A DNA stretch of 40,959 bases from a virus, in IMG/VR virus record IMGVR_UViG_3300023284_000545, positions 1-40,959 of that record, one strand, 5' to 3'. The notes under the pieces were generated by a model. That model had not been told where the DNA came from, did not search any database, and was given only the letters and a program-made list of their open reading frames with translations. This document shows, in pieces, positions 24,988 to 29,933 of this stretch. Position numbers and translations under genes: made by a program. Each line of letters opens with the position of its first letter. Position 1 is the stretch's first letter.

Positions 24988-25063
24988 TCTGGGCAAGGCA
25001 CAAGGCGTGCCGGATGGCTGTTAACCATTGCCGAGTTAGGTTCGATTCCTAAGCCCAGAGCCA
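24988..25063 (+). tRNA. tRNA-Asn(GTT)
   Basis: Seven-bp acceptor stem TCTGGGC/GCCCAGA, anticodon loop CTGTTAA (GTT), T-arm GGTTCGATTCC and encoded CCA. First gene of the array, 15 nt after the terminator. Confidence 0.9.
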
Positions 25064-25069
25064 AGATGA

Positions 25070-25143
25070 TGCTGAGTGAACAGGCGTGTCCGTGGGGGAT
25101 CATAACCCCTATCGCGAGGGTTCGAATCCCTTCTCAGCGACCA
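25070..25143 (+). tRNA. tRNA-CAT (elongator Met or Ile2)
   Basis: Acceptor TGCTGAG/CTCAGCG, anticodon loop ATCATAA, regular T-arm and encoded CCA. The D-arm pairs poorly and is short. CAT could be Met or, if the C is lysidine-modified, Ile; the sequence does not decide. Confidence 0.75.
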
Positions 25144-25147
25144 GTGA

Positions 25148-25223
25148 CGCGGGGTGATAGCAGCGGCAGCTTGCTTGGTTCATACCCAAGAGGTCGAGGG
25201 TTCGAGTCCCTCTCCCGCAACCA
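25148..25223 (+). tRNA. Initiator tRNA-fMet(CAT)
   Basis: Opens CGCGGGGTG and ends CCGCAACCA, like bacterial initiator tRNA. It has the unpaired C1-A72 at the acceptor end and an A11-U24-type D-stem pair, both initiator hallmarks. The anticodon stem is CTTGG/CCAAG, so the three consecutive G:C pairs usual in initiators are reduced to two. Confidence 0.8.
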
Positions 25224-25228
25224 AATAT

Positions 25229-25306
25229 ATGGGATTAGCTCAGTCTGGTCAGAGCAGGGGTCTCCAAAGCCTCGTGTCAGGAGTTCGAATCTTCTATCCC
25301 ATGCCA
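25229..25306 (+). tRNA. tRNA-Trp(CCA)
   Basis: Acceptor ATGGGAT/ATCCCAT, D-stem GCTC/GAGC, anticodon loop CTCCAAA, T-arm AGTTCGAATCTT and encoded CCA. Confidence 0.9.
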
Positions 25307-25310
25307 GTAA

Positions 25311-25385
25311 CGCCGGTTCGTCCAGTGGCTAAGACACGCGGCCGATAACCGTGGAACATGGGTTCGAGTCCCATACCGGCAACCA
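25311..25385 (+). tRNA. tRNA-Ile(GAT) with unpaired first position
   Basis: Anticodon stem CGCGG/CCGTG with loop CCGATAA (GAT). If U8 is kept, the acceptor is CGCCGGT/ACCGGCA, giving a C1-A72 mismatch as in initiators. Encoded CCA follows. Confidence 0.85.
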
Positions 25386-25448
25386 AAACGGGTGAGCACT
25401 GCGGGGACGAGTGCTTCATGGCCTACGAGGCAGCAGCCGTGAAATTAT

Positions 25449-25526
25449 CTGGGATTAGCTCAGCATGGTCAGAGTGCCTGCCTTGGAAGCAGGAAGCCAT
25501 TGGTTCGAATCCAATATCCCAGACCA
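25449..25526 (+). tRNA. tRNA-Pro(TGG)
   Basis: Acceptor CTGGGAT/ATCCCAG, anticodon stem CCTGC/GCAGG with loop CTTGGAA, T-arm TTGGTTCGAATCCAA and encoded CCA. A 63-nt stretch without a recognisable gene precedes it. Confidence 0.9.
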
Positions 25527-25533
25527 AAATTAT

Positions 25534-25611
25534 GGTGGGCAATGACCAACTGGTGTTGGCTCCTGTCTGTGAAACAGGATCTGGTGGGATCGTAACCCAC
25601 TGTTCACCCCA
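25534..25611 (+). tRNA. tRNA-His(GTG)
   Basis: Includes an encoded extra G(-1) facing C73, the tRNA-His hallmark. Anticodon stem CCTGT/ACAGG with loop CTGTGAA. The T-loop (ATCGTAA) departs from the TTCGA consensus. CCA is encoded. Confidence 0.85.
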
Positions 25612-25617
25612 AAATAT

Positions 25618-25694
25618 CGGGCCTTGGTCTAGTGGACAAGGACGCCTGCCTCTCAAGTAGGAAGTCACGGGTTCGAATCCCGTAGGCCCGGCCA
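25618..25694 (+). tRNA. tRNA-Glu(CTC)
   Basis: Acceptor CGGGCCT/AGGCCCG, loop CTCTCAA (CTC), T-arm CGGGTTCGAATCCCG, encoded CCA. It is the only intact Glu tRNA here, because the TTC-type gene is split at 28809-29340. Confidence 0.9.
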
Positions 25695-25705
25695 AGACAA
25701 GTCAC

Positions 25706-25782
25706 GGGGGTGGCTCAGGGTGCAAGCTGGTTTCCCTTGCAAGGAGACTGTAGGGTGGGTTCGAGTCCCACCTCCTCCACCA
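25706..25782 (+). tRNA. tRNA-Ala(TGC)
   Basis: Anticodon loop CTTGCAA (TGC) and T-arm GTGGGTTCGAGTCCCAC with encoded CCA. The acceptor GGGGGTG/CTCCTCC has one mismatch and the position-8 base is not U, so it is less regular than its neighbours. Confidence 0.8.
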
Positions 25783-25786
25783 GAAC

Positions 25787-25958
25787 GTCGTCAGACGTAA
25801 AACGAGGCGTTACGGCACGCCTATCCTTAGAACGCCACGGTGGGATCGACCGGTAATCAGTCTAAGGAGGACTCAGTGAGCGGCAATTAGGCCCCAGCCC
25901 GTAGGATCGTCGGGTCGAGGGAGACGCCTCTTCCTTGGGTATCACTGAGAAGGACGAC
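25787..25958 (+). ncRNA. Structured non-tRNA RNA segment between tRNA-Ala and tRNA-Val
   Basis: This 172-nt stretch lacks a tRNA or ORF but contains several perfect helices: closing GTCGTC (25787-25792) with GACGAC (25953-25958); GAGGCGT (25804-25810) with ACGCCTC (25924-25930), or a local AGGCG/CGCCT alternative; CCTTAGA (25825-25831) with TCTAAGG (25861-25867); CTCAGTGA (25872-25879) with TCACTGAG (25942-25949). It would be co-transcribed with the tRNAs. No known RNA family was recognised. Confidence 0.5.
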
Positions 25959-25968
25959 AGAAGAGTAT

Positions 25969-26042
25969 ACTCGGTTAGCTGAGGGGATTAGCATCTGTTT
26001 TACACGCAGAGGACGTAGGTTCGATTCCTACACTGAGTACCA
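25969..26042 (+). tRNA. tRNA-Val(TAC)
   Basis: Acceptor ACTCGGT/ACTGAGT with one G-U pair, anticodon loop TTTACAC (TAC), T-arm GTAGGTTCGATTCCTAC, encoded CCA. Confidence 0.9.
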
Positions 26043-26047
26043 AATAT

Positions 26048-26132
26048 GCGGAGGTAAAGTCGGGGGTTCCGACAAGCGGTCTGTAACACCGTGCCTTTCG
26101 AGGGAGTGGTTCGAGTCCATACCTCCGCACCA
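26048..26132 (+). tRNA. tRNA-Tyr(GTA)
   Basis: Acceptor GCGGAGG/CCTCCGC, anticodon loop CTGTAAC (GTA), a long class II variable arm as expected for Tyr, encoded CCA. Confidence 0.9.
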
Positions 26133-26283
26133 AAATTTCTCCGAGAGTACGGCTGTAGCGGTCGGAGGGTACGGGGACAAAGGCGGATTAGGGTTACAGG
26201 GTATCTTCCCCCGCCGCGCGAACAGGACACGGCTTTTGACTAGCTAACTTGAGCCCCTGATCGCGGTTGGTTCCCCCAAACAT
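26133..26283 (+). other. Gap between tRNA-Tyr and tRNA-Arg with inverted repeats
   Basis: No gene is recognised in these 151 nt. CTCCGA (26139-26144) pairs with TCGGAG (26162-26167), and GGCGG (26182-26186) with CCGCC (26211-26215). It may be structured RNA or decayed tRNA sequence; no T-arm or CCA end is present. Confidence 0.3.
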
Positions 26284-26360
26284 GGTTTCGTGGCTCAACT
26301 GGATAGAGCACTACCCTGCGAAGGTAGAGAGTGAAGGTTCGAGTCCTTCCGGGACCACCA
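26284..26360 (+). tRNA. tRNA-Arg(GCG)
   Basis: Acceptor GGTTTCG/CGGGACC with G-U pairs, D-stem GCTC/GAGC, anticodon loop CTGCGAA (GCG), T-arm AAGGTTCGAGTCCTT, encoded CCA. Confidence 0.9.
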
Positions 26361-26366
26361 AGTTAT

Positions 26367-26470
26367 GACGCGGCCTTATCGGGAGGTAGGGAAACGGAGC
26401 TGGCCTAGGCGGCACCTGAAATGGAAGCCGTCTCGCCAGGAGATGCGCCCAGTCGTATCCTGCGTCACCG
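26367..26470 (+). ncRNA. tRNA-like structured RNA ending in ACCG
   Basis: A 7-bp acceptor-like stem, GACGCGG (26367-26373) with CTGCGTC (26460-26466), directly abuts a 5-bp T-arm-like hairpin, GATGC/GTATC (26442-26446/26455-26459), with an 8-nt loop. A discriminator-like A and then CCG follow. The middle holds a long arm, CTGGC plus GGCGGC paired with GCCGTC plus GCCAG (26400-26439), and no normal anticodon arm. The preceding spacer AGTTAT is the one used before true tRNAs here. Function unknown. Confidence 0.45.
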
Positions 26471-26475
26471 AATAT

Positions 26476-26553
26476 GCTTCCGTAGCTCATATGGAGTAGA
26501 GCGCCTGGCTTCGAACCAGGAGGTGGTGGGTTCGACTCCTACCGGGAGCACCA
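26476..26553 (+). tRNA. tRNA-Arg(TCG)
   Basis: Acceptor GCTTCCG/CGGGAGC, anticodon stem CCTGG/CCAGG with loop CTTCGAA (TCG), T-arm with TTCGACT loop, encoded CCA. Confidence 0.9.
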
Positions 26554-26558
26554 AATAT

Positions 26559-26644
26559 GGATGGTTGGCAGAGTGGTAATGCAGCAGTTTGCTAAACTGT
26601 AGTACCGAAAGGTACCGAGGGTTCGAGTCCTTCACCATCCGCCA
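26559..26644 (+). tRNA. tRNA-Ser(GCT)
   Basis: Acceptor GGATGGT/ACCATCC, anticodon loop TTGCTAA (GCT), long variable arm (GTACCGAAAGGTAC), encoded CCA. Confidence 0.9.
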
Positions 26645-26649
26645 AGTTT

Positions 26650-26701
26650 GGTATGCGCTAGCGTTAATGTGTTGATAGTCGGGGGTACGCTCCCCGCGCC
26701 A
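26650..26701 (+). pseudogene. tRNA remnant: T-arm-like hairpin plus CCA
   Basis: CGGGG (26680-26684) pairs with CCCCG (26692-26696) around a 7-nt loop GTACGCT, and CG then CCA follow directly. There is no acceptor stem, D-arm or anticodon arm of normal form. Probably a decayed or truncated tRNA. Confidence 0.35.
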
Positions 26702-26710
26702 TAGAAATAT

Positions 26711-26787
26711 GCTTCCTTGGTCTAGCGGCTTAGGACGCCCGCCTGTCACGCGGGAGGTCACGGGTTCGAATCCCGTAGGGAGCGCCA
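26711..26787 (+). tRNA. tRNA-Asp(GTC)
   Basis: Acceptor GCTTCCT/AGGGAGC, anticodon stem CCCGC/GCGGG with loop CTGTCAC (GTC), T-arm CGGGTTCGAATCCCG, encoded CCA. Confidence 0.9.
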
Positions 26788-26792
26788 GGTTT

Positions 26793-26867
26793 GCCGGGTT
26801 GGTGTAGTTGGCCGCATAACTGTTTCGTAATCAGACGGAAGGGGTTCGATTCCTCTACTCGGCACCA
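26793..26867 (+). tRNA. tRNA-Thr(CGT)
   Basis: Acceptor GCCGGGT/ACTCGGC, anticodon loop TTCGTAA (CGT) on a weak stem with mismatches at both ends, normal T-arm, encoded CCA. Confidence 0.85.
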
Positions 26868-26871
26868 TGAT

Positions 26872-26948
26872 GCCAGTCTAGTTTAATTGGCTAAAACGCC
26901 GGTTTTGTACTCCGGTAGATTTCGGTTCAAATCCGAAGGCTGGCTCCA
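26872..26948 (+). tRNA. tRNA-Thr(TGT)
   Basis: Acceptor GCCAGTC/GGCTGGC, anticodon loop TTTGTAC (TGT), T-arm TCGGTTCAAATCCGA, encoded CCA. Confidence 0.88.
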
Positions 26949-26955
26949 GTTAAAT

Positions 26956-27030
26956 GGATCAGTGGCTTGAAGGGGAAGCGGCAGACTCTTAATCTGCTAC
27001 ATGTGGGTTCGAATCCCATCTGATCCTCCA
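26956..27030 (+). tRNA. tRNA-Lys(CTT)
   Basis: Acceptor GGATCAG/CTGATCC, anticodon stem GCAGA/TCTGC with loop CTCTTAA (CTT), encoded CCA. It is nearly identical in the middle to tRNA-Lys(TTT) at 28512, which points to a duplication. Confidence 0.9.
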
Positions 27031-27045
27031 AATAAGAAAGGCAAG

Positions 27046-27561
27046 ATGATGAACACGGTACCAAAGATCGGCCTGGACTACAAGGTGATCAAGCAGTTCA
27101 TTCGGGATAGCCACCCGGAGAGCGTGGTTATGATCGGCTGCGATTCGGTTCGTAAGGCCACAGGAAAGAACAAGGCGTCCGCGCTTTACTCTACTGTGGT
27201 GGTGATCCGTAAGGCCAGTGGTGCCGGTGTGTTCCATGGCTGCAAGGTGTTCGGTGCTAGTGTTCGCTTGCCTGACTACGGCAGAGTGGTCAAGAGTGGT
27301 AAGCTGGCGAACCTGAAGCTGCGTCTGTTGCAAGAGGTGACCTTCGCGCTCGAAGCGTTCGACGGTGTACAAGAGGCCATCGAGGACCGGCCTTTTGAGA
27401 TTCATTTGGACATTGCGTCCGACCCCCGCTGGGAGAGTAACGTCGCAATGGCTGAGGCACGGGGTTACGTGCTTGGAGTGACAGGTCGTGAGCCTGAGTT
27501 CAAGCCGATTGCTCCGGCAGCAAGTTTCGCAGCAGACATGCACGCACACGGTCTGTTGTAG
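27046..27561 (+). CDS. YkuK/DUF458-like RNase H-fold protein inside the tRNA array
   Basis: A 171-residue protein flanked by tRNA-Lys and tRNA-Leu. It carries the DUF458 (YkuK-like, RNase H fold) pattern: an early acidic strand VVMIGCDSV, a strand pair STVVVIRK, the central HLDIASD and the C-terminal FKPIAPAASFAADMHAHG, which corresponds to the family's KPxxxAAxxxAD end. The acidic residues could hold catalytic metal. AAAGG precedes ATG 27046/27049. Its place among tRNAs hints at RNA processing or turnover, but this is inference; the family's function is not well established. Confidence 0.7.
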   Translation: MMNTVPKIGLDYKVIKQFIRDSHPESVVMIGCDSVRKATGKNKASALYSTVVVIRKASGAGVFHGCKVFGASVRLPDYGRVVKSGKLANLKLRLLQEVTFALEAFDGVQEAIEDRPFEIHLDIASDPRWESNVAMAEARGYVLGVTGREPEFKPIAPAASFAADMHAHGLL

Positions 27562-27568
27562 AGTAAAT

Positions 27569-27652
27569 GCTCGTATGGTGGAACGGTAGACACGCTAGGT
27601 TGAGAGCCTAGTTCTTAACGGAGTGCAGGTTCGACTCCTGCTATGAGCACCA
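27569..27652 (+). tRNA. tRNA-Leu(GAG)
   Basis: Acceptor GCTCGTA/TATGAGC, anticodon stem CTAGG/CCTAG with loop TTGAGAG (GAG), long variable arm, encoded CCA. Starts 7 nt after the YkuK-like stop codon. Confidence 0.9.
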
Positions 27653-27655
27653 AGT

Positions 27656-27726
27656 TCGCGGTCGCTTAAAGGAAAAGCGCCTCCTGAGCGGAGGAGATGC
27701 AGGGCTCGTACCTTGTCCGTGATCCA
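27656..27726 (+). pseudogene. Degenerate tRNA (anticodon perhaps GAG)
   Basis: It has an acceptor-like TCGCGG/CCGTGA with a G-U pair, a perfect D-stem CGCT/AGCG, an anticodon-like hairpin with loop CTGAGCG and encoded CCA. Only one base separates acceptor and D-stem, the T-loop is abnormal (CTCGTA), and base 37 is C. Function is doubtful. Confidence 0.5.
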
Positions 27727-27733
27727 AAGTTAT

Positions 27734-27819
27734 GTCCTGCTGGCGGAATGGCAGACGCGCCGGGTTCAAATTCCGGTCCTCGTAAGAGGGTGAAGGTTCG
27801 AGTCCTTCGTGGGACACCA
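27734..27819 (+). tRNA. tRNA-Leu(CAA)
   Basis: Acceptor GTCCTGC/GTGGGAC with G-U pairs, anticodon loop TTCAAAT (CAA), long variable arm (CCTCGTAAGAGG), encoded CCA. Confidence 0.9.
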
Positions 27820-27825
27820 AGTTAT

Positions 27826-27902
27826 GCGGGTATGGGCAAATGGTAAAGTCGCCTGGTTTAGACCCAGGAGTTTTGTAGGTTCGAATCCTACTACCCGCAC
27901 CA
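27826..27902 (+). tRNA. tRNA-Leu(TAG) with short variable loop
   Basis: Acceptor GCGGGTA/TACCCGC, anticodon stem CCTGG/CCAGG with loop TTTAGAC (TAG, reads CUA). The variable region is only about 6 nt, unlike the long arm normal for bacterial Leu tRNAs. CCA is encoded. Confidence 0.85.
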
Positions 27903-27907
27903 AATAT

Positions 27908-27997
27908 GGATAGTTGGCTGAGTGGGTTAAGGTGCTCGCCTGGAAAGCGAGTGAACTTGAAAGAGTTCCGTGGGTTCGAATCCTACACTATCCGCCA
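27908..27997 (+). tRNA. tRNA-Ser(GGA)
   Basis: Acceptor GGATAGT/ACTATCC, anticodon stem CTCGC/GCGAG with loop CTGGAAA (GGA), long variable arm, encoded CCA. Confidence 0.92.
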
Positions 27998-28003
27998 GAA
28001 TAT

Positions 28004-28101
28004 GGATGGCTAAGCCGAAAGAGTTTGGGTAACGGCAACTGTCTTGAAAACAGTAGGCCCCTAAGAGGGGTGTGTGGGTTCGAATCCTACGCCATCCGCC
28101 A
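28004..28101 (+). tRNA. tRNA-Ser(TGA)
   Basis: Acceptor GGATGGC/GCCATCC, anticodon stem ACTGT/ACAGT with loop CTTGAAA (TGA), long variable arm (GCCCCTAAGAGGGGT), encoded CCA. Confidence 0.92.
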
Positions 28102-28107
28102 AGATAT

Positions 28108-28185
28108 GCTTGGGTAGCTCAGTGGTTGTAGAGCGGTCGGTTGAAGCCCGGCGCGTCGGTGGTTCGAATCCATCTCCAAGCACCA
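28108..28185 (+). tRNA. tRNA-Phe(GAA)
   Basis: Acceptor GCTTGGG/TCCAAGC, D-stem GCTC/GAGC, anticodon stem GTCGG/CCGGC with loop TTGAAGC (GAA), encoded CCA. Confidence 0.9.
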
Positions 28186-28190
28186 ACATT

Positions 28191-28265
28191 GCCGTGGTAG
28201 CTCAGTGGCAGAGCATTCCCTTGGTATGGGAGAGGTCGAGGGTTCGAATCCTTCTCGCGGCACCA
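28191..28265 (+). tRNA. tRNA-Thr(GGT)
   Basis: Acceptor GCCGTGG/TCGCGGC, D-stem GCTC/GAGC, anticodon loop TTGGTAT (GGT), T-arm GAGGGTTCGAATCCTTC, encoded CCA. Confidence 0.9.
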
Positions 28266-28273
28266 GAATTTGT

Positions 28274-28347
28274 TGCTGGGTAGTTTAGTGGTAGAACGTC
28301 TGGCTCTGAACCAGGTAGCGAGGGTTCGAATCCTTCCCCGGCATCCA
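28274..28347 (+). tRNA. tRNA-Gln(CTG)
   Basis: Acceptor TGCTGGG/CCCGGCA with the U1-A72 pair usual for Gln, D-stem GTTT/GAAC, anticodon loop CTCTGAA (CTG), encoded CCA. Confidence 0.92.
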
Positions 28348-28348
28348 A

Positions 28349-28424
28349 CGGCGTGTAGCTCTAACGGATAGGCGCCTGCCTTCTAAGCAGGAACATGCGG
28401 GTTCGAATCCTGTCACGCCGACCA
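28349..28424 (+). tRNA. tRNA-Arg(TCT)
   Basis: Acceptor CGGCGTG/CACGCCG, anticodon stem CCTGC/GCAGG with loop CTTCTAA (TCT), T-arm with TTCGAAT loop, encoded CCA; only 1 nt separates it from tRNA-Gln. Confidence 0.9.
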
Positions 28425-28430
28425 ATTTGA

Positions 28431-28505
28431 CGGGGTATAGTTCAGTGGTAGAACTGGGCGCTCATAACGCTTTAGTCGGGGGTTCGATTCCCTCTACCCC
28501 CACCA
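28431..28505 (+). tRNA. tRNA-CAT (elongator Met or Ile2) with C1-C72
   Basis: Acceptor CGGGGTA/TACCCCC leaves C1 opposite C72. D-stem GTTC/GAAC (elongator-type U11-A24), anticodon loop CTCATAA, encoded CCA. It complements the initiator at 25148 and the other CAT tRNA at 25070. Confidence 0.85.
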
Positions 28506-28511
28506 ACATAT

Positions 28512-28586
28512 GGATCTGTGGCTTGAAGGGGAAGCGGCAGACTTTTAATCTGCTACATGTGGGTTCGAATCCCTCCAGATCCTCCA
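28512..28586 (+). tRNA. tRNA-Lys(TTT)
   Basis: Acceptor GGATCTG/CAGATCC, anticodon stem GCAGA/TCTGC with loop CTTTTAA (TTT), encoded CCA. Sister copy of tRNA-Lys(CTT) at 26956. Confidence 0.92.
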
Positions 28587-28588
28587 AT

Positions 28589-28674
28589 GCTCCTGTGGTG
28601 AAATGGCAGACGCGCCGGGTTTAAATTCCGGTTTCTGAAAAGAAGTGTGGGTTCGAATCCCTCCAGGAGCACCA
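28589..28674 (+). tRNA. tRNA-Leu(TAA)
   Basis: Acceptor GCTCCTG/CAGGAGC, anticodon loop TTTAAAT (TAA), long variable arm (TTTCTGAAAAGAAG), encoded CCA. Confidence 0.92.
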
Positions 28675-28680
28675 GTTTAT

Positions 28681-28755
28681 TGCCGGGTCGTCTAACGGTA
28701 GGACCCCTGCCTTTGAAACAGGCTAATGTTGGTTCGAGTCCAACCCCGGCATCCA
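28681..28755 (+). tRNA. tRNA-Gln(TTG)
   Basis: Acceptor TGCCGGG/CCCGGCA, anticodon loop CTTTGAA (TTG), T-arm TTGGTTCGAGTCCAA, encoded CCA. Confidence 0.92.
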
Positions 28756-28756
28756 A

Positions 28757-28808
28757 TATGTGCTCTTAAGGTAACATTAACCGGCTTTATGTGCTCTTAA
28801 GGCAACAT
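28757..28808 (+). repeat. 21-bp direct repeat upstream of split tRNA-Glu
   Basis: TATGTGCTCTTAAGGTAACAT (28757-28777) recurs at 28788-28808 with one change (T to C). The copies start 31 bp apart and lie between tRNA-Gln and the 5' fragment of tRNA-Glu. They may be duplicated tRNA spacer or a recombination scar. Confidence 0.7.
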
Positions 28809-28822
28809 GTGGCAGTCGTCTA

Positions 28823-29271
28823 ACTTTCAACGTTTGACATGAGTGAAAGTATAGTGTATAATAGAAGGTATGGTAAGAATATGCACTAAATGTAGGGAGG
28901 AAAAAACCGTTAGCGATTTCGCTTTCAGGAATAAAGCATTAGAGAAATATGCTTCAAATTGCAAACAGTGCCAGAAGGTAATGAAGGATAATCATTATCA
29001 GAAAAACAAGAATGTTTATAAGAAAAAAGCAAAACGACACAATAGAAAACAGTTAACTAGATGGCATGAATTTAAGTCAAAATTATTTTGCACAGAATGT
29101 GGAGAGCACAGAGCTGCCACTTTAGATTTTCACCATCCTAATAATGATAAGGATTTCACCCTAGCACAATTGGTTAATGGTAGATATGGATGGGGTAGGA
29201 TAATGCAAGAAGTTGAAAAATGTATTGTTTTATGTTCTAATTGCCACAGGATACTGCACGATACGGAGCGT
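28823..29271 (+). mobile_element. HNH insertion flanked by TCGTCTA direct repeats
   Basis: The segment between the two tRNA-Glu fragments carries its own consensus promoter and an HNH gene, is much more AT-rich than its surroundings, and is bounded by 7-bp TCGTCTA repeats that belong to the tRNA D-arm. There is too little non-coding sequence (about 47 nt) for a group I intron, so a mobile endonuclease gene is the best reading. Confidence 0.7.
28834..28862 (+). promoter_or_regulatory. Consensus sigma70 promoter (TTGACA-17-TATAAT)
   Basis: Both hexamers are perfect with a 17-bp spacer. ATG 28870 of the HNH gene is only 7 nt after the -10 box, so the transcript is predicted to be leaderless. 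Confidence 0.85.
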
Positions 29272-29295
29272 TCGTCTAGCGGCCAGGACCCCTGA
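28870..29295 (+). CDS. HNH endonuclease inserted in tRNA-Glu
   Basis: A 141-residue protein. The N-terminus has a zinc-binding pair of CxxC motifs (CTKCREEK and CKQCQK). The middle is Lys-rich (KNKNVYKKKAKRHNRKQ). The C-terminal HNH module contains CTECGEHRAATLDFHHPNND and CIVLCSNCHRILHD. The gene's end runs into the tRNA-Glu 3' fragment, so its last residues (SSSGQDP) come from tRNA sequence. Low GC and its own promoter mark recent transfer. Its presumed target is the tRNA-Glu gene. Confidence 0.85.
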   Translation: MVRICTKCREEKTVSDFAFRNKALEKYASNCKQCQKVMKDNHYQKNKNVYKKKAKRHNRKQLTRWHEFKSKLFCTECGEHRAATLDFHHPNNDKDFTLAQLVNGRYGWGRIMQEVEKCIVLCSNCHRILHDTERSSSGQDP

Positions 29296-29344
29296 CTTTC
29301 AATCAGGAAAACATCGGTTCGAATCCCGTCTGCCACTCCAACAT

Positions 29345-29420
29345 GGTTCCGTAGCTCAACTGGATGAGCGTTCTCCTCCTAAGAGAAAGGATGTAGGTTC
29401 GAGTCCTACCGGGACCGCCA
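29345..29420 (+). tRNA. tRNA-Arg(CCT)
   Basis: Acceptor GGTTCCG/CGGGACC, D-stem GCTC/GAGC, anticodon stem TTCTC/GAGAA with loop CTCCTAA (CCT), encoded CCA. Last tRNA of the array. Confidence 0.92.
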
Positions 29421-29429
29421 AAATAGCTA

Positions 29430-29458
29430 TTGACTTTCGGCCACGGCTGGAGTATAAT
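29430..29458 (+). promoter_or_regulatory. sigma70-type promoter of the tmRNA (TTGACT-17-TATAAT)
   Basis: A 5/6 -35 box and a perfect -10 separated by 17 bp, 10 nt after tRNA-Arg. Predicted transcription starts near 29465, just at the acceptor piece of the tmRNA. Confidence 0.8.
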
Positions 29459-29462
29459 GGTT

Positions 29463-29810
29463 GTTGAGTTCGGTGATGTTGACCGAAGACATTCAGGACC
29501 GGGGGGCAGTACCCCGCGCCTCCACCATAAGCAGCAGACGTTAGCTATCTGTATCGAGCTTACCCGTCATAGCCATTGAATACAGGGATAGCGCCCTGTA
29601 CGTCAGACGGGTGCTGCTTTTGATGGGGGCGAATCAGGATCGACTGATGGGCTAGTGATGCGGAGAACTCCGGGATGGTTCCCACGTAGCGGACCACCAA
29701 CTCTAAACGCAAACGATAACGAAGCGTATGTGGAACTCGCCCTCGCGGCGTAATCTCCACGGGGTTTGAGGGGCACCTAGCAACAGAAGCCCCTCCCTTT
29801 AAGGACCCCC
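29463..29810 (+). ncRNA. ssrA: Circularly permuted (two-piece) tmRNA
   Basis: The acceptor piece comes first: T-stem CGGGG/CCCCG (29500-29516) with loop GGCAGTA, then CGCCTCC, A and CCA (to 29527). An intervening segment (29528-29624) follows, in which AAGCAGCA pairs with TGCTGCTT next to the ends. The coding piece starts GGGGGCG (29625-29631), which pairs with CGCCTCC. The tag frame 29709-29753 reads ANDNEAYVELALAA then TAA, and a pseudoknot-like GAGGGGC/GCCCCTC follows. tmRNA rescues stalled ribosomes and tags proteins for degradation. The two ends (29463 and 29810) are approximate. Confidence 0.88.
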
Positions 29811-29933
29811 ATGAAAACGTTTGACCGCCTCCTCTCCTGGCTTTACACGTGGCGCCTATTCGGTTCCAGATGTTCAGACTATGAGGAGAGCTGCGCGTGC
29901 TGCGAGGCATGGAAATTCCACGACGAGCTGTAA
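29811..29933 (+). CDS. Small Cys-rich protein, 40 aa
   Basis: ATG 29811 is preceded by AAGGA at the right distance. The protein is aromatic and Cys-rich (RLLSWLYTWRLFGSRCSDY, then SCACCEAWKFHDEL). Four Cys residues could bind a metal. The start directly follows the tmRNA coding piece, so it may be expressed from the same transcript. Function unknown. Confidence 0.6.
   Translation: MKTFDRLLSWLYTWRLFGSRCSDYEESCACCEAWKFHDEL

Follow-up and report, generated by a model that had tools for sequence, protein, structure and literature searches.

In bacteria, stalled ribosomes are freed chiefly by tmRNA. Phage-encoded tmRNAs were already listed by 2014 (PMC4131195), and a 2022 survey found tmRNAs in 402 of 18,146 phage genomes, with 133 unique forms, of which 53 were called two-piece, mostly aquatic (PMC9004378). 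A 2025 tmRNA database contains 79 bacteriophage sequences (PMC11915505). Here, we analyzed a locus on the plus strand of IMG/VR virus record IMGVR_UViG_3300023284_000545, whose full 40,959 bases we refer to as the window. An earlier reading of the letters alone (the original prediction) had proposed a permuted, two-piece tmRNA and treated its presence on a phage as a surprise. That surprise is misplaced, as two-piece phage tmRNAs were surveyed in 2022 (PMC9004378) and are present in the isolates Melnitz, DSS3_MAL1, and RcRudolph. Because such RNAs have been reported before, the window tmRNA belongs to a known kind, to which it adds one more member. What our comparisons newly contribute is evidence, suggestive rather than conclusive, that there is a tmRNA lineage confined to viruses and with tags of its own. 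Our preferred reading, to which we assign a probability of roughly 0.8, is that the window carries a working alphaproteobacterial-type permuted ssrA on a tailed phage, that it belongs to a lineage circulating among phages, and that it would supply trans-translation during infection.

Anatomy of the tmRNA gene

ARAGORN called a permuted tmRNA at 29435-29844 with the tag ANDNEAYVELALAA*. Two Rfam models matched the locus above their gathering scores, namely alpha_tmRNA (RF01849; 29426-29798, 126.9 bits, E=2e-34, full model 1-355, cut-off 50) and tmRNA_permuted (RF04321; from 29466, 106.8 bits, E=5e-20, full model 1-213, cut-off 47), and with both models a chance origin of the match is excluded. 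Along 29430-29800, the order is promoter, acceptor piece, spacer, and coding piece (Table 1). The permuted order claimed in the original prediction, with the acceptor half before the coding half, was borne out by direct reading and by ARAGORN. We also located every element that it had named: the pairing acceptor strands GGGGGCG/CGCCTCC, an encoded CCA, a GGCAGTA T loop, a complete tag frame ending in LALAA, and a promoter of its own. It had pointed to ARAGORN and the permuted covariance models as the tools to recognize the locus, and both do. The acceptor stem, G3:U70 pair, CCA, T arm, GCA resume codon, tag with its stop, 3' stem, and promoter are all intact. The matches to both permuted models and the permuted call by ARAGORN support assigning the locus as a permuted, two-piece, phage-encoded tmRNA gene.

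Table 1. Features of the tmRNA locus and adjoining tRNA array, in window coordinates
Feature	Position	Strand	Basis
tRNA array, about 33 tRNA genes, closed by the tmRNA	24988-29420	+	ARAGORN and Rfam
HNH endonuclease ORF within the tRNA array; 3' end overlaps tRNA-Glu(UUC)	28870-29295	+	phrog_2255, 2e-29
Sigma-70-type promoter TTGACT-17-TATAAT	29430-29458	+	11/12 matches; RF01849 also spans a TATA-like stretch here
Acceptor piece, 3' half of the tRNA-like domain, ends in CCA, ..CGCCTCCACCA	29466-29527	+	Reading, ARAGORN, Rfam
T arm CGGGG-GGCAGTA-CCCCG	29500-29516	+	Reading, Rfam
Acceptor 3' strand CGCCTCC (29517-29523), discriminator A (29524), CCA (29525-29527)	29517-29527	+	Direct reading
Intervening segment (spacer), 97 nt	29528-29624	+	Folding
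Coding piece: 5' acceptor strand, PK1 region, tag, 3' stem; 3' end estimated	29625-29797	+	ARAGORN, Rfam
Acceptor 5' strand GGGGGCG	29625-29631	+	Direct reading
Likely PK1: GGG 29672-29674/CCC 29681-29683; GGUU 29677-29680/GACC 29692-29695	29672-29695	+	By hand
Tag frame ANDNEAYVELALAA*; resume codon GCA at 29709, U(-5)A(-4) ahead	29709-29753	+	ARAGORN, reading
3' stem GAGGGGC/GCCCCUC around conserved CAACAGAA (29781-29788)	29768-29795	+	Rfam, alignment
40-codon ORF MKTFDRLLSWLYTWRLFGSRCSDYEESCACCEAWKFHDEL, Cys-rich, directly after the tmRNA	29811-29933	+	ORF reading

All seven pairs of the acceptor stem are present by direct reading, with G3 (29627) opposite U70 (29521). G3:U70 is the alanine identity pair for alanyl-tRNA synthetase, and the host enzyme would be expected to charge the RNA through it. 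The T loop GGCAGTA departs from the usual TTCGAAT; the consensus of the alpha model is likewise GGCgGUA-like (Rfam). U(-5)A(-4) likewise stands ahead of the resume codon in E. coli tmRNA. The spacer forms a long hairpin that extends the acceptor stem (29512-29637, -51.2 kcal/mol, z -4.25, with 0 of 200 shuffles as good) and would juxtapose both processing sites. In the mechanism we propose, the host-type promoter of the gene would drive its transcription, the hairpin would draw the two halves together, and host tRNA-processing enzymes would cut out the spacer. The expected mature pieces, of ~62 nt (acceptor) and ~173 nt (coding), would then stay joined by base pairing. The tmRNA of phage Wildcat is that phage's most expressed lytic gene, which shows the strength that phage tmRNA genes can reach (PMC7474061).

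The PK1 region of the window aligned without the conserved bacterial sequence CGGcAUggUCCgCCGUUAUCGG. Following the bacterial arrangement, we could pair GGG/CCC and GGUU/GACC by hand, and this layout is the likely PK1. A naive automatic pseudoknot scan found no PK1 in the window and was equally uninformative for bacterial tmRNAs. Separately, an apparent absence of the CAACAGAA motif from half of the phages was rejected as an artefact of the search pattern, as nearly all have GAAACAGAA or a similar variant.

Directly downstream, the 40-codon ORF has an AAGGA ribosome-binding-like site and starts ~14 bases past the tmRNA 3' end. It matched no family and had no relatives among the fetched loci.

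Phage context and the tRNA array

The window encodes tape measure, tail, spanin (lysis), ribonucleotide reductase, DNA polymerase, and Holliday junction resolvase genes. The virus record and these phage genes place the tmRNA on a phage genome and not on a host fragment. Matches to one tail protein are annotated as tail or gene-transfer-agent host-specificity proteins and come mostly from phages of Alphaproteobacteria (Caulobacter, Rhodobacter, Brevundimonas, Roseobacter), so the host is likely an alphaproteobacterium. No relatives of this GTA-type tail protein, or of an RNase H-like protein in the tRNA array, were found in viral contigs, and these searches thus yielded no near relative of the locus. 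smpB was absent from the window and from seven other viral records searched; with no smpB in the window, SmpB must come from the host. Host SmpB would bring the tmRNA to ribosomes that stall on broken mRNAs in the infected cell, and the most likely benefit to the phage would be extra trans-translation capacity when broken transcripts stall ribosomes.

The tmRNA closes the tRNA array, as originally predicted, and the count of 32 tRNAs gave way to about 33 by ARAGORN and Rfam combined. ARAGORN called 30 tRNAs in the window. Rfam added a tRNA-Glu(UUC) that reaches the gathering score (29274-29329). Two further Rfam matches stay below threshold, one reading as Tyr-GUA (26048-26128) and one as Ser-UGA (28004-28097). 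Within 28870-29338, the tRNA-Glu(UUC) overlapped by the HNH ORF has a partly mismatched acceptor stem and scores 30.8 bits over model positions 10-63 only; the HNH ORF may have inserted by homing into a tRNA gene or next to one. Between two tRNA-Leu genes, 27653-27733 is cloverleaf-like, with the anticodon loop CTGAGCG and the T loop GCTCGTA. It was called by neither ARAGORN nor Rfam and is possibly a decayed or odd tRNA. Additionally, a folded segment between two tRNA-Arg genes (26361-26475, -46.8 kcal/mol, z -2.2) is closed by GACGC/GCGTC and matched no Rfam family.

Placement among tmRNAs and their tags

We drew 152 alphaproteobacterial genomes evenly, of which 141 had a permuted tmRNA above cut-off, and fetched 130 regions. 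Viral rows were gathered through a T-arm/acceptor pattern; the T-arm/acceptor motif occurs in at least 120 stretches of IMG/VR. The main tree combined 109 of the alphaproteobacterial tmRNAs with 65 viral rows. It places the window among 57 rows that are all viral, with support of 98/92 for this set. With PK1 columns left out, a virus-only set of 63 persists (98/88). The coding half alone gave 62 viral rows plus one other, L436 (SH-aLRT 99), and the acceptor half alone was too short to resolve viral from bacterial grouping. In a trimmed set, with bacteria thinned and eleven long or displaced rows removed, chosen after seeing the tree, viruses and bacteria split at 100/99 and in 200 of the 200 bootstrap trees checked. 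On this same trimmed set, an AU test did not reject a tree in which the window sits among the bacteria (p=0.134). The trees suggest, without being conclusive, that the window tmRNA groups with phage tmRNAs and not with the sampled bacteria, and both sampling bias and long branches may contribute to this grouping.

L436/L461 is the second tmRNA of an alphaproteobacterial genome (G144 contig C5, L461 9764-10542) and lies beside tRNA-Pro, -Met, and -Trp. It adjoins terminase and head protein genes, which indicates a prophage-borne copy. Viral tmRNAs outside the set that holds the window include L200, which is host-like, and the DSS3_MAL1/MD18 and ANDD/ANDA-tag rows, which lie on other long branches. 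From their tag forms, we take the ANDD/ANDA rows to be perhaps of a betaproteobacterial type.

These placements bear on whether the phage recently took its gene from a host ssrA and carries it, without selection, as a passenger behind the tRNAs. Phages do acquire genes for tRNAs and tmRNA, integration occurs at tmRNA genes, which imprecise excision can then take along (PMC9004378), and the host-like tmRNA of L200 is an example on a viral contig. However, the window groups within the viral set of 57, its best match is also viral (L150, about 70% identical), its tag occurs nowhere in the bacterial sample, and its elements are intact; we consider a captured passenger quite unlikely. The exact acceptor-half sequence was found in no bacterial genomes. 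Under our preferred reading, the gene would come from a tmRNA lineage moving among phages rather than from a recent copy of a host gene.

The tags also separate the two groups. The viral rows yield 56 different tags and the class sample of bacteria 85, and no tag occurs in both; the original prediction that the phage would use its own peptide agrees with this, as the window tag differs from every tag in the bacterial sample. The pattern [DE][YFML]xxAA occurs in 34/56 viral vs 9/85 bacterial tags (Fisher p 3e-10, a value that is too small because the rows are related), and the median length is 14 residues in viral vs 12 in bacterial tags. Very long tags of 22-29 residues, e.g., ANDNALSNVTFVDFSAPVTAVNEDFALAA, are common to several viral contigs (L128/L130, L120/L124/L136/L144, and L095/L107).

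An ANDN start and an [LVI]AA end are the parts of a tag read by proteobacterial Clp proteases and adaptors. Of the 56 viral tags, 92.9% end in [LVI]AA, 71% begin with ANDN, and 55 end in AA, so tag coding is conserved across phages, which argues for working tags that direct degradation (ssrA tags and ClpXP/SspB are reviewed in PMC8138137). The resume codon, stop, and Clp-type degron end are all present in the window tag. The tmRNA would append (A)ANDNEAYVELALAA and free the ribosome, and the ANDN start and LAA end of the tag would fit the host Clp machinery.

Two other roles for the RNA can be weighed against these tags. The DS6A tmRNA has little beyond the tRNA-like domain (PMC4131195), and such a form inhibits tmRNA, perhaps by titrating SmpB (PMC4131195, PMC11915505). 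The window RNA could by the same token be a decoy that occupies the SmpB or ClpXP of the host and keeps it from trans-translation. We find this highly improbable, as the DS6A gene is without a tag, whereas the window has a complete tag frame, resume signal, and 3' stem, and a decoy would not need the AA that ends nearly all viral tags. A second proposal keeps the same RNA and supposes that its tag has stalled proteins of host and phage degraded on phage terms, with amino acids recycled, for example through better binding of ClpX/ClpA or an adaptor by the phage tag. The viral tags do differ as a group in length and in the [DE][YFML]xxAA pattern, and amino-acid recycling was suggested by the Melnitz authors (PMC9004378), but the difference may be mere inheritance within a viral lineage. 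We regard this retargeting, including the example of better binding, as unlikely, though less so than capture or a decoy, and favor a supply of additional trans-translation.

More broadly, most alpha-type permuted phage tmRNAs, the window included, may descend from an old lineage confined to viruses, which moves among unrelated phages. The lineage would retain the rescue RNA but have its own PK1 and tag class, so that phages would impose their own tagging and not that of a host copy. We hold this proposal tentatively, at somewhat less than even odds. Its members would include the myophage Melnitz, the siphophage-like window, and RcRudolph, and its tags would be longer, with an acidic-aromatic step ahead of ALAA. 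If confirmed, a virus-only lineage would revise the view of phage tmRNAs as recent host captures, and its distinct tags would make the gain to a phage from its own tmRNA testable.

Comparison with described tmRNAs

The alphaproteobacterial permuted tmRNA (Caulobacter type, RF01849/RF04321) has the same gene order, acceptor stem, T arm, spacer, ANDN...AA tag, and CAACAGAA stem as the window. The window differs in being without the CGGcAUggUCCgCCGUUAUCGG consensus, in carrying a tag unseen in the bacterial sample, and in its location in a phage tRNA array.

Among phages, the DSS3_MAL1 (MN602268) and MD18 (MT270409) tmRNAs are also permuted and lie in a large tRNA array, and the DSS3_MAL1 record carries an ssrA annotation. 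They differ in their tag, ANTNAAPMEMAIAA, and in falling outside the viral set of the window in our trees. The tmRNAs of mycobacteriophages and Bacillus phage G are one-piece and not permuted. They share with the window that they are phage-encoded (PMC4131195).

Rhodobacter phage RcRudolph (OP009285), itself a phage of an alphaproteobacterium, has a permuted tmRNA with the tag ANDNVRMDAQALAA. At this locus (L465 2972-3386, OP009285.1), the record annotates a hypothetical protein instead and lists no tRNA within the surrounding 6 kb. The ssrA of Methylophilales phage Melnitz (MZ577095; PMC9004378), with the tag ANDNYVPVDYALAA, is likewise a phage-borne two-piece tmRNA. It is similar to L150 and is among the nearest rows to the window in one tree. 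Melnitz differs in phage type, being a 141-kb myophage of the Kyanoviridae, and its ssrA is linked to a glutamine riboswitch (PMC9004378), whereas Rfam matched no riboswitch near the window tmRNA.
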